Assembly (NCBI GenBank): GCA_024278345.1
Contig: JAJRTK010000131.1
Location: 1 to 8,288, forward strand
DNA length: 8,288 nt
DNA from: a bacterium
GTDB taxonomy: Bacteria; CSSED10-310; JAJRTK01
Reading direction: 5' to 3'
Position numbers and translations under genes: made by a program. Shown here in pieces: positions 517 through 6,656 of this stretch. Positions within the stretch are counted from its first letter, which is position 1, and every line of letters starts with the position of its first letter. Under the pieces are notes generated by a model. That model had not been told where the DNA came from. It saw nothing but the letters and a program-made list of their open reading frames with translations, and did not search any database.

Positions 517-565
517 TGTCAACCTCAATTTCTCAAGACGAATCATGGCCTTGCGGAGGTTGACA
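517..565. repeat. 10-bp perfect inverted repeat upstream of the RHH-nadA pair (candidate operator)
   Basis: TGTCAACCTC at 517-526 is the exact reverse complement of GAGGTTGACA at 556-565, with 29 bases between them. The right arm contains a perfect -35 hexamer TTGACA (560-565) reading toward the RHH and nadA genes. No T-run follows, so it does not look like a terminator. Two half-sites separated by about four helical turns (centre to centre 39 bases) would suit a small dimeric repressor, such as the RHH-like protein encoded just downstream. The repeat is seen directly; the operator role is inferred. Confidence 0.4.
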
Positions 566-637
566 ACGTTTGAATTCAAAGTTAGGTTAAGAACAGAACA
601 ATGTTTATACAAACACCATATAAGAAGTGTATAGAAT
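560..637 (+). promoter_or_regulatory. Candidate promoter region for the RHH-nadA pair, with a second short dyad
   Basis: A TTGACA at 560-565 lies upstream of an AT-rich stretch. A -10 at the standard 17-18 spacing is weak (TTAGGT or TAGGTT at 583-589). Further down, TATAAG-like sequence (619-624) sits inside a second dyad, TATACA at 606-611 facing TGTATA at 628-633. The whole region is clearly more AT-rich than the neighbouring genes, which suits a regulatory region, but the exact promoter cannot be fixed by eye. Confidence 0.3.
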
Positions 638-703: not shown

Positions 704-922
704 ATGACAAAACGTGGCACCGGATCGAAGAAAATCGTGCGGACCTTCACCGCATTGCCTCGAGAGCTCGAAATGCTCACGACTCTCGCCCGCTATCACG
801 GATTTTCAAAGAGCGCCATGATCACAAGCCTCATCCGCAAAGAGTTCTGGAGAATCTTTCCCGCGGGAACCGAGTCGGTCAAGCCCGAACCTGGCGCCCG
901 TATCCGAGGAGAAAGCTCATGA
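704..922 (+). CDS. Small ribbon-helix-helix-like protein, coupled to nadA
   Basis: A 72-residue basic protein. After a Lys/Arg-rich N-terminus, residues 11-17 (IVRTFTA) form a possible beta strand. They are followed by LPRELEMLTTLARYHG (18-33) as helix A and FSKSAMITSLIRKEF (34-48) as helix B. This matches the CopG/Arc/MetJ-like layout of strand, helix, Gly turn, Ser-x-Ser helix cap and helix, which in this family dimerises and binds DNA through the strand. The C-terminal 20 residues look disordered. The start ATG at 704 has a GGAG ribosome site at 693-696. The TGA stop (920-922) overlaps the nadA ATG (919-921), so translation of the two is probably coupled. A DNA-binding regulator of nadA or of itself is the natural guess, and an antitoxin-like RHH is an alternative, though no toxin gene is adjacent. 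The family assignment rests on pattern only. Confidence 0.6.
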   Translation: MTKRGTGSKKIVRTFTALPRELEMLTTLARYHGFSKSAMITSLIRKEFWRIFPAGTESVKPEPGARIRGESS

Positions 923-1923
923 CAGACCAAGCAGTCTTGAATCCGCCCCAATCCTATGTTCCCGATGCCTGGACGATCCATGATGCTCATAAAACGAGCC
1001 GCATCCAGCGCCAGATCCGGGAACTGGCCAGGGAAAAAAAAGCGACCATCTTGGCTCATAATTACCAGGTTCCCGAGGTTCAGGAGCTGGCGGATTTTGT
1101 GGGGGATTCCCTTGGCCTCGCCATCCAGGCCCAGGAGACCGACAGCGACGTCATCGTCTTTTGCGGGGTCCATTTCATGGCGGAGTCGGCGAAAATCCTC
1201 AACCCCGAAAAGAGCGTTCTGTTGCCCAGTCTTGCGGCAGGGTGCTCGCTGGCTGATTCCATCTCCCCCGAAACCCTCGAAGACTGGAAAGGTCGCTATC
1301 CCGGCTACAAGGTGGTCACCTATGTCAACTCGACGGCCGAGGTGAAGGCCATGTCCGATATTTGTTGCACTTCGGCGAACGCCGTTTCCGTAGTCCGCAG
1401 CCTGGGAGTGGACAAGGTTTTGTTCACTCCCGATCGGAATCTTGGGCGGTGGGTTGCGAACCAGCTCCCGGAAGTCGATGTTGCCATTTACGACGGTGTC
1501 TGCCCCACCCACGACGTCCTCAGAAGCCCATCCGTGGCTAGGACGATGAAAGAGCACGCCAACGCCGTGGTCATCGCTCATCCCGAGTGTAGGGAAGACG
1601 TTGTTGCCATCGCTGATGAGGTCTGTTCCACCACCGGCATGATCCACGCCGTCGAACGGCATTCCGAGGCTAAGACCTTCATCGTCGCCACGGAATGGTC
1701 CATGCTCCATCGGTTGCGGACGATGTTTCCCGACAAAGAGTTTATCGTGGCCGACGGCTGTATCGGCTGCCGTCTCCACTGCCCCTACATGAAGATGATC
1801 GACCTCGACGGAATTCTGCGTTCCCTGGAAGAGGGCATCTTCGCCATTGATGTCGAACCAGAGATCATGGGCGGAGCACGGCAAGCGTTGGAGCGAATGC
1901 TGGCGGTGCCCCGCGATCATTGA
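919..1923 (+). CDS. nadA: Quinolinate synthase NadA
   Basis: NadA condenses iminoaspartate (from NadB) with dihydroxyacetone phosphate to give quinolinate, the precursor of NAD, in the cytoplasm. It needs a [4Fe-4S] cluster. The 334-residue product carries the family motifs in order: AHNYQVPEVQELADFVGDS (46-64), FCGVHFMAESAKIL (81-94), YVNSTAEVKA (135-144), CTSANAV (150-156), FTPDRNLG (169-176), AHPEC (220-224), STTGM (237-241) and ATEWSMLHRL (257-266). The three expected cluster ligands are C109 (AAGCSLADS), C195 (GVCPTHD) and C288 (HCPYMKM). Two further cysteines, C281 and C284, precede the last ligand. The start at 919 is chosen over longer in-frame GTG options because of an AGGAG site at 907-911, the overlap with the upstream RHH gene, and the usual family length. 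No nadB or nadC is in the window. A run of eight A (1034-1041) lies in the coding sequence without breaking it. Confidence 0.96.
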   Translation: MTDQAVLNPPQSYVPDAWTIHDAHKTSRIQRQIRELAREKKATILAHNYQVPEVQELADFVGDSLGLAIQAQETDSDVIVFCGVHFMAESAKILNPEKSVLLPSLAAGCSLADSISPETLEDWKGRYPGYKVVTYVNSTAEVKAMSDICCTSANAVSVVRSLGVDKVLFTPDRNLGRWVANQLPEVDVAIYDGVCPTHDVLRSPSVARTMKEHANAVVIAHPECREDVVAIADEVCSTTGMIHAVERHSEAKTFIVATEWSMLHRLRTMFPDKEFIVADGCIGCRLHCPYMKMIDLDGILRSLEEGIFAIDVEPEIMGGARQALERMLAVPRDH

Positions 1924-3270: not shown

Positions 3271-3299
3271 TTGAATTCTAGATAGGTTATAGATACTAT
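3271..3299 (+). promoter_or_regulatory. Sigma70-type promoter for the pmtA-like gene
   Basis: TTGAAT (3271-3276), a 17-base spacer, and TACTAT (3294-3299) make a good match to a housekeeping promoter in an AT-rich patch. It would give a leader of about 147 bases before the GTG at 3453. A small hairpin, ACGAA-GCTC-TTCGT (3254-3267), lies just upstream of the -35. No other plus-strand gene starts between here and the methyltransferase. Confidence 0.5.
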
Positions 3300-5229: not shown

Positions 5230-5774
5230 GGAAAAACCTCCTGATTCACGACATCCACAAGGCTTGAAAGATGGCTGGTCGCGGCCTTGGGCTCTAGAGC
5301 AGCTCACCTTGTCGGTCTCATGGTTTTCCAAGTTGCATGCCAACCTTTCCACGCGGCAGCTCCACCGTCGATGGGAGCCGTTGACCAAGGAGAGATCGCT
5401 CATTAGAGGCTTGCCTCCAATGGATGCTTGCCTGAAGGTGTTCCATCGCAAAGTGTCAAGTCTGTTGTCAGTAAATTGGTTCGGTTTGGGATATGCCCAT
5501 AAGAATCAGTCTATTATCCTTGTGTCGCGGCAGTTGTCGTGGCGGGCGGTTTCATTTCCAGGGCACGGACGCCGGTGGCCGGCGGCAAAAATGGCGACTG
5601 GCGGCGGCCGGAGGGCCGGTGACGGGAGCGGACACACGTCCAAAAAGGCGTTTTACGGGCAACCACCCCCCGTGAGGAGCCACCAGCGTTTCCCTGGCGG
5701 AACTCCACCGCCGCCCTTCATTCTCAGCCATGAATTGCTATATCCCTCAGAGATTTGATACTAGGGGAAGCAAG
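5230..5774. other. 545-base intergenic region with a hairpin cluster
   Basis: No convincing gene on either strand. The left part (5230-5520) is of ordinary composition with a small hairpin GAGGC-TT-GCCTC at 5406-5417. The right part turns GC-rich and carries four hairpins in a row: CGCCGG-TGG-CCGGCG (5570-5584), CGGCC with GGCCG (5605-5618), ACGGG with CCCGT (5655-5673), and CCACCAG with CTGGCGG having one mismatch (5680-5700). It lies between two divergent genes, so promoters for both should be here, but I cannot place them with confidence. No riboswitch class I know fits. Confidence 0.4.
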
Positions 5775-6656
5775 ATGGAGGAAAGATCTATATATAAGGT
5801 GGTCGTTGTCGAAGACGAGGACAAGATCAGGGCTCGGTTGGCCAAGATCCTCAAGGATAGTGGTCGCTACCGGCCATTGGAGGCTGCGGACGGTCGGGCA
5901 GCTCTTGAGGTGATCTTAGCCGAGTCTCCTGGGTTTGTTCTGCTCGACCATAGTCTTCCCGTCCTTGATGGCGGCGAAGTTATTCTTGCGCTGGAACAGA
6001 TTATTGAGGAGCGTCCCAGTCTGCAGAGGATCTCCGTCATCGCTCTCACGGGCAAAGGAGAAAGCTGGAAGCGCCGCGAGATTTCGAACCATGCTCTGAT
6101 TTCCGACTACGTCTCCAAGAGCTGCGACCCCTATCGCCTTCTCTTGACGCTGGATAACTTGGCGCAGTCTCGGCAACATCAAGAGCGAATTGCTGCCGAG
6201 CAGTACAAAAAGCTCGGAATCAAATCCCTGTTTTCCGCGATCATGGATGCTGCACAAGAGGGTTTTCTACTGACGAATCGCCAGGGATACGTATCGTACG
6301 CCAACTCGGCCGCGGGAAAAATTATAGGGGTGGCTCGCGGTCAGACCCTGTATGGAGAGCATCTCAGCTCCTTCCTTGGTGAGGAGCTCGCTGAAATGCT
6401 CGTGGGCAGCCCAACGGCTCAGCGGATCATCGAAGACGTTTCCAGAAAGACGGTTCGGTTGAGCCGCACCCGGGATGGTCGCGAAACGGTGATTCACTTT
6501 ACGATGTATCCGTACCACGGCCCAGATGGTCAGGAGAACGGGATCATCTTTCACATCCGGGACCTTGAGTTCCTACGCCGTGAACTCGAGCGTGCCGGAG
6601 TTTCCATCGGCGAGAAAGCAGTACCGCTCTTTCAGACCCCTAGTGGGAAGCGCTAG
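5775..6656 (+). CDS. Response regulator: receiver domain plus PAS domain, no known output domain
   Basis: A 293-residue cytoplasmic signalling protein. The receiver domain (about 6-130) has the acidic pair E13-D14 in VVVVEDEDK, the phosphate acceptor D58 in VLLDHSLPVLDGGEV, the threonine T92 in IALTGKGES and the lysine K115 in DYVSKSCDP, so it should be phosphorylatable by a histidine kinase. A helical linker (about 131-148) leads to a PAS domain (about 149-265, SLFSAIMDAAQEGFLLTNRQ then GYVSYANSAAGKIIG, ending NGIIFHIRDL). The last 28 residues are a short helix and tail. There is no helix-turn-helix, GGDEF, EAL, HD-GYP or kinase module, so it probably works through protein contacts or as part of a phosphorelay. 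The ATG at 5775 is chosen because it has a GGGGA-type ribosome site and places the receiver at the N-terminus; an in-frame ATG at 5730 would add 15 residues. No partner kinase is in the window. Confidence 0.88.
   Translation: MEERSIYKVVVVEDEDKIRARLAKILKDSGRYRPLEAADGRAALEVILAESPGFVLLDHSLPVLDGGEVILALEQIIEERPSLQRISVIALTGKGESWKRREISNHALISDYVSKSCDPYRLLLTLDNLAQSRQHQERIAAEQYKKLGIKSLFSAIMDAAQEGFLLTNRQGYVSYANSAAGKIIGVARGQTLYGEHLSSFLGEELAEMLVGSPTAQRIIEDVSRKTVRLSRTRDGRETVIHFTMYPYHGPDGQENGIIFHIRDLEFLRRELERAGVSIGEKAVPLFQTPSGKR

Follow-up and report, generated by a model that had tools for sequence, protein, structure and literature searches.

A predicted ribbon-helix-helix repressor of NAD supply encoded in overlap with nadA

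The 8,288-nucleotide stretch of bacterial DNA analysed here (the window) encodes a 72-aa protein whose gene overlaps that of quinolinate synthase (NadA), the enzyme that forms the pyridine ring in de novo NAD synthesis. Conserved sequence features, predicted structure and gene neighbourhoods indicate that this protein is very probably a local ribbon-helix-helix (RHH) transcriptional repressor of NAD supply, acting on its own gene and nadA. All cells keep NAD supply under tight control, and the bacterial NAD repressors are given as NadR, NiaR, NrtR and NadQ only (PMC12421817, 2025); no RHH regulator of NAD was found in a literature search that left most subscription journals outside its scope. 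We consider it probable, as a joint reading, that the 72-aa protein represents a fifth type of NAD regulator in bacteria, with an RHH fold and no separate sensor domain, in which a self-regulated rhh-nadA cassette spreads between phyla, the same operator is re-used over a HAAT-type nicotinate importer in lineages without de novo synthesis, and this importer is a newly predicted vitamin B3 transporter.

The gene pair and the fold of the small protein

The gene pair and its upstream elements comprise the following features of the window, all on the forward strand.

560..588, +, predicted sigma70-type promoter (consensus scan)
560-565, +, -35 box TTGACA (consensus scan), followed by a 17-nt spacer
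583-588, +, -10 box TAGGTT (consensus scan)
604..637, +, predicted operator with three TATAYAAR-like units (conserved motif; best site of the window)
704..922, +, gene for a predicted RHH-like repressor, 72 aa (ORF, family alignment, AF2/Foldseek, CopG profile match)
907-911, +, Shine-Dalgarno-like AGGAG serving nadA, inside the small gene
919..1923, +, nadA, quinolinate synthase, 334 aa (PF02445, TIGR00550 and NF006878 above cut-off)
919..922, +, ATGA overlap of small-gene stop and nadA start (sequence; shared by 20 of the 33 homologous loci)

The small gene begins with ATG and ends with TGA at 920-922, while nadA has its ATG at 919 and its stop at 1923, which confirms the ATGA overlap described in the earlier note. 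NadA scores 384.5 bits against PF02445 (cut-off 27) and is likewise assigned by TIGR00550, with NF006878 also above cut-off. Because nadA has its own Shine-Dalgarno-like AGGAG, translational coupling from the small gene to nadA is plausible, as judged from how the two genes overlap. The small gene is present as a single copy in the window's genome, which encodes NadC in addition to NadA, and de novo NAD synthesis is therefore likely present. No Rfam match at the gathering threshold was found in the window. Two glutaredoxin-type genes and a BolA gene lie in a row at 2017-2966 on the reverse strand, a familiar Fe-S/redox cluster that here adjoins the gene of the Fe-S enzyme NadA, and the gene at 5730-6656 fuses a response regulator receiver to a PAS domain, with no recognised output domain.

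The 72-aa protein is laid out as a strand (about residues 12-17), helix A (19-32) and helix B (36-51), followed by the conserved tail EFWRxFPxGTx4xPx2GAxV. The family alignment shows the same order, RTFTA, PRELEMLTTLARYHG, an FSKSA turn, the second helix and the strongly conserved EFWRxFPxG...P..GA tail, and is devoid of cysteine. The earlier note had described a small strand-helix-helix protein; the AF2 monomer model (16 sequences) has RTFTA followed by helices over residues 19-32 and 36-51, with a pLDDT of only 63 and with the strand not formed, and a model with the homologue at locus L013 as first sequence gave the same helix pattern at no higher confidence. The RHH secondary-structure pattern, a strand and two helices within about 45-50 residues, is thus recovered at low pLDDT. 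In a profile search of the PDB, CopG came top with a weak E of 0.14, in register over the strand, helix A and the SKSA turn, and in this alignment T6 and T8 of CopG are paired with residues 14 and 16, which are conserved as T/S. The top 17 Foldseek matches were RHH entries, including Rv0298, CopG, Arc, TacA, MatP, VapB and NikA, or the designed beta-alpha-alpha protein 2mdv, with E from 0.33 to 1.7 and none individually significant. The small protein had no match in Pfam and no name from NCBIfam, where only aCcr1 was weakly matched (E 0.043). Taken together, alignment, CopG profile match, AF2 and Foldseek make an RHH protein likely, and the predicted fold is RHH-like, as anticipated in the earlier note.

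Distribution and linkage to nadA

A first scan, with a single genome for each species, yielded 15 loci with close relatives of the small gene, 14 of which have nadA immediately 3'. Profile searches covered the phyla to which an Acidobacteriota locus (347 genomes) and an Anaeromyxobacter locus (195 genomes) belong, the order of a Burkholderiales locus (399 genomes), and the window's own small phylum (8 genomes). Family homologues occur in 38 genomes and are 42-71% identical in alignments, with nadA directly downstream in 33 of the 38, so that the adjacency to nadA, set as a check in the earlier note, extends to distant as well as related genomes. The ATGA overlap is exact in 20 of these 33 rhh-nadA loci, and the others range from about -20 to +28 nt. 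Occurrence is patchy (14/347 and 14/195 in the phyla of the Acidobacteriota and Anaeromyxobacter loci, 5/399 in the Burkholderiales order), and profile matches are all-or-none, with E of 1e-31 or better or else nothing at 0.001. Several RHH-positive genomes are metagenome-assembled, and absences there may be gaps.

In a NadA tree of 52 sequences, the 27 RHH-linked NadAs form one clade (100/100) although drawn from several phyla, while the 25 NadAs from RHH-lacking genomes, many of the same phyla, fall outside it. The genes flanking the rhh-nadA pair vary among the loci viewed, as judged by inspection. This combination of a single NadA clade across phyla and differing flanking genes suggests that the pair is cassette-like, and it looks like a horizontally moving, self-regulated two-gene cassette. 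At one locus (genome G014, contig C349, L011 1648-6219) the pair is tandemly duplicated, with apparently identical copies 3.35 kb apart, possibly an assembly artefact.

Many RHH proteins are antitoxins, and a small RHH protein encoded 5' of a larger overlapping gene, with an antitoxin as first Foldseek match, could be read as half of a toxin-antitoxin pair. This reading is barely credible, since the partner gene encodes either NadA, which is a housekeeping enzyme, or an ABC importer (see below), and since the small gene is present as one copy in nearly every genome that carries the family, with no plasmid copies found in a plasmid search. No toxin partner was found, and the toxin-antitoxin reading was rejected.

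Promoter and predicted operator

The rhh upstream regions of different phyla are otherwise unalike but share the element TTATATAA. An exact copy lies no more than 100 nt from the start in 25 of 34 regions, where shuffles predict 0.085. A second TATAYAAR-like unit is present at a lag of exactly 11 bp in 22 of the 34, compared with 1.2 +/- 1.0 in shuffles; lags of 10 and 12 do not occur, and lags of 9 and 13 are likewise elevated, an effect to be expected of a TA-repetitive unit. The three units of the window (606-613, 617-624 and 628-635) are exactly 11 bp apart and lie about 20 nt 3' of the -10 box. Outside the Anaeromyxobacter group, TTGACN-16/18-TAnnnT is found at the equivalent position in most relatives, and in many loci with TTGACN-17-TAnnnT the repeats overlie the -10 or sit 10-20 nt after it. 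The small gene is thus preceded by a predicted short-repeat operator at the promoter of its own operon, as in RHH repressors.

With a leave-one-out motif, built without the window, the best-scoring site of the window is 604-626, and 200 Markov windows include none that scores as high. Second in this ranking is an AT-rich stretch at 3273-3299, 5' of a methyltransferase gene, probably by chance. Upstream of the operator, an imperfect inverted repeat at 510-572 has 17-nt arms that are 82% complementary (core GTCAACCTC/GAGGTTGAC), and its right arm includes the predicted -35 box.

The operator model was run over 20 whole genomes, including the window's own, and the sole place matched at E<=5 is upstream of the small gene. 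Since the model was trained on rhh-nadA sites, and the sites of the 20 genomes are in or near the training set, the informative part is the absence of further matches: no other full operator was found at E<=5 in the window's genome or the other 19. The predicted full operator is therefore the mark of a local, not a global, regulator.

In 12 GC-rich genomes of the Anaeromyxobacter group (4-7 Mb), TTATATAA occurs 0-2 times per genome. One copy lies at rhh-nadA and the sole other, in 8 genomes, precedes the NAD kinase gene (nadK), in a short gap and divergent from rarA. In these eight genomes TTATATAATG is identical throughout, with variable flanks. The nadK site is a single TTATATAA core that contains a perfect TATAAT and has no clear flanking repeats, and it could therefore simply be a conserved -10 box. 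The same might be asked of all the upstream TATATAA repeats, which are AT-rich and contain TATAAT-like words, and which could be promoter elements only, serving as -10 boxes or in DNA opening. For the repeats as a whole this is very unlikely, as in many loci a TTGACN-17-TAnnnT promoter lies apart from them on the upstream side, the 11-bp phasing is strict, and there is almost no other occurrence across whole genomes. An operator remains the favoured assignment.

The small gene at the head of an ABC importer in Burkholderiales

In all five RHH-positive Burkholderiales the small gene heads a HAAT-type ABC operon, whose next genes encode a solute-binding protein of the HAAT type, a fused permease and ATPases; the junction with the importer is ATGA in four of them and TGATG in one. 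The operator model finds sites in three of these genomes that lie outside its training, with E of 3e-5 to 3e-4, and locus L012, in the fifth genome, belongs to the training set. NadA was not found in any of the five, although present in 5 of 7 RHH-lacking Burkholderiales sampled, and NadC above cut-off was likewise not found in the five.

The closest solved relative of the importer's binding protein is PDB 3i45 (E 2e-145, nearly gapless over its length), whose record name is just 'twin-arginine translocation pathway signal protein'. Its ligand is probably nicotinic acid; a literature search found no paper on the ligand. Orthologues of the importer occur on plasmids (L146-L149) within nicotinate-degradation clusters. 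They adjoin genes for 6-hydroxynicotinate reductase and a molybdopterin hydroxylase on Comamonadaceae and Sulfitobacter plasmids, lie within a set resembling the aerobic nicotinate pathway on an Agrobacterium vitis plasmid, and lie beside an FAD monooxygenase and a molybdopterin dehydrogenase on a Roseomonas plasmid. NCBIfam has no models specific to nicotinate-degradation enzymes, and we take the assignment of these clusters to nicotinate pathways from general knowledge and the names in the records. From the gene context of the orthologues, with NadA and NadC not found, the Burkholderiales importer most likely carries nicotinate. The plasmid orthologues are a candidate nicotinate uptake system in their own right, independent of the RHH gene.

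In one importer-type genome (G769, about 77% of which was read), NadD, NadE and NadK were found, while PncB, the link from nicotinate to NaMN, was not found within these 1.93 Mb with E. coli PncB as query. A weak PncB candidate (L158:13183-13866) is not named as an NAPRTase and was rejected. Two nadB-like matches in this genome, both below the NadB cut-off, were also rejected, one being succinate dehydrogenase and the other closest to fumarate reductase/SdhA models. Among further neighbours, a large glutamate-synthase-beta-like oxidoreductase lies 5' of the importer operon (L127 8081-16798; also L125, L126 and L128), and a C45-family acyltransferase/hydrolase neighbours it in L126 and L127.

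These five genomes also bear on the choice, left open in the earlier note, between a new type of regulator and an accessory factor of NadA. As an accessory or chaperone factor (for cluster loading, or as a complex partner), the small protein would be co-translated with NadA for stoichiometry, consistent with the tight overlap and with its confinement to one NadA clade. Such a role is highly improbable because the gene occurs without NadA, five Burkholderiales carrying both gene and predicted operator with no NadA found; moreover, the fold is RHH-like, the family alignment has no cysteine, and the conserved upstream DNA repeats would be left without a role. The regulator is favoured by the same five genomes and by the conserved 11-bp-repeat operator predicted 5' of the small gene.

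Proposed mechanism

In the proposed mechanism, RHH dimers would bind side by side on TATAYAAG-like units that recur with an 11-bp period, equal to one helical turn. The array of units would be centred on TTATATAA and lie at the -10 of the rhh-nadA promoter or immediately 3' of it, where the dimers would block transcription of the small gene and nadA. Through the ATGA overlap, a single message would encode both repressor and enzyme. When the NAD pool suffices the promoter would be shut, and when it falls the repressor would release. Because the protein has no separate sensor domain, the signal would act directly on the RHH dimer and the conserved C-terminal motif. This signal would most likely be NAD(P), a late intermediate (NaMN/NaAD) or nicotinate, which are likelier than an early intermediate since the regulator is also present where quinolinate is not made. 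The lack of cysteines in the family alignment makes an Fe-S sensor unlikely. We infer DNA binding, repression rather than activation, and the identity of the effector, each from sequence comparison.

The predicted targets vary by lineage, and each contributes to NAD(P) supply: 33 genomes have nadA as target, 8 have a core site at NAD kinase, and 5 have a probable nicotinate importer, which points to a role in NAD metabolism. An RHH regulator of another kind, an activator or one responding to a non-NAD signal such as oxygen or iron, could also be envisaged, as NadA is an oxygen-sensitive [4Fe-4S] enzyme and the direction of control is itself deduced. This is unlikely, given that the predicted operator lies on or 3' of the -10, where repressors usually act, that the family has no cysteines, and that the site is common to targets without Fe-S clusters (the nicotinate importer and NAD kinase). 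An RHH dimer array on 11-bp promoter repeats, repressing its own operon, would explain every item.

If correct, this proposal supplies a regulator together with its operator, a small regulon that lends itself to testing, and a candidate importer of nicotinate. It would do so for Acidobacteriota, Myxococcota and some Burkholderiales, and the papers searched yielded no such NAD control for these groups. A 72-aa sensor of NAD state without a sensor domain would also be a compact model for metabolite control by RHH proteins.

Comparison with known systems

Like NadR, NiaR, NrtR and NadQ, the small protein would exert local control of nadA or other NAD genes, with which such regulators are often clustered. 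NiaR is a winged-helix protein. NadR, NrtR and NadQ are described as combining a helix-turn-helix DNA-binding domain with further domains (PMC5343134, PMC12421817). None of the four known regulators has the RHH fold, as the earlier note supposed. By contrast, the small protein, with its 72 aa and no Pfam or NCBIfam match, belongs to none of these families, consists of a single small RHH-like domain, and has a different predicted operator (that of NadQ is ttATRCTCannntGAGYATaa).

With CopG, Arc and other short RHH repressors it shares a short strand-helix-helix architecture, an SKSA inter-helix turn as in CopG, a (predicted) autoregulated operon, and predicted operator repeats at the promoter with a spacing of about one turn of the helix. 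It differs from them in being chromosomal and tied to NAD supply genes, and in its distinctive invariant tail EFWRxFPxG...GA, unmatched by the RHH models of Pfam and NCBIfam. MetJ, the RHH repressor of methionine synthesis, binds tandem short repeats, and the small protein is predicted to control a biosynthetic pathway in the same manner. No sequence relation to MetJ was detected, and MetJ has about 105 aa and 8-bp repeats, whereas the small protein has 72 aa and 11-bp repeats, and its pathway is that of NAD. The importer of the Burkholderiales resembles PDB 3i45 and related HAAT-type importers, its binding protein matching 3i45.
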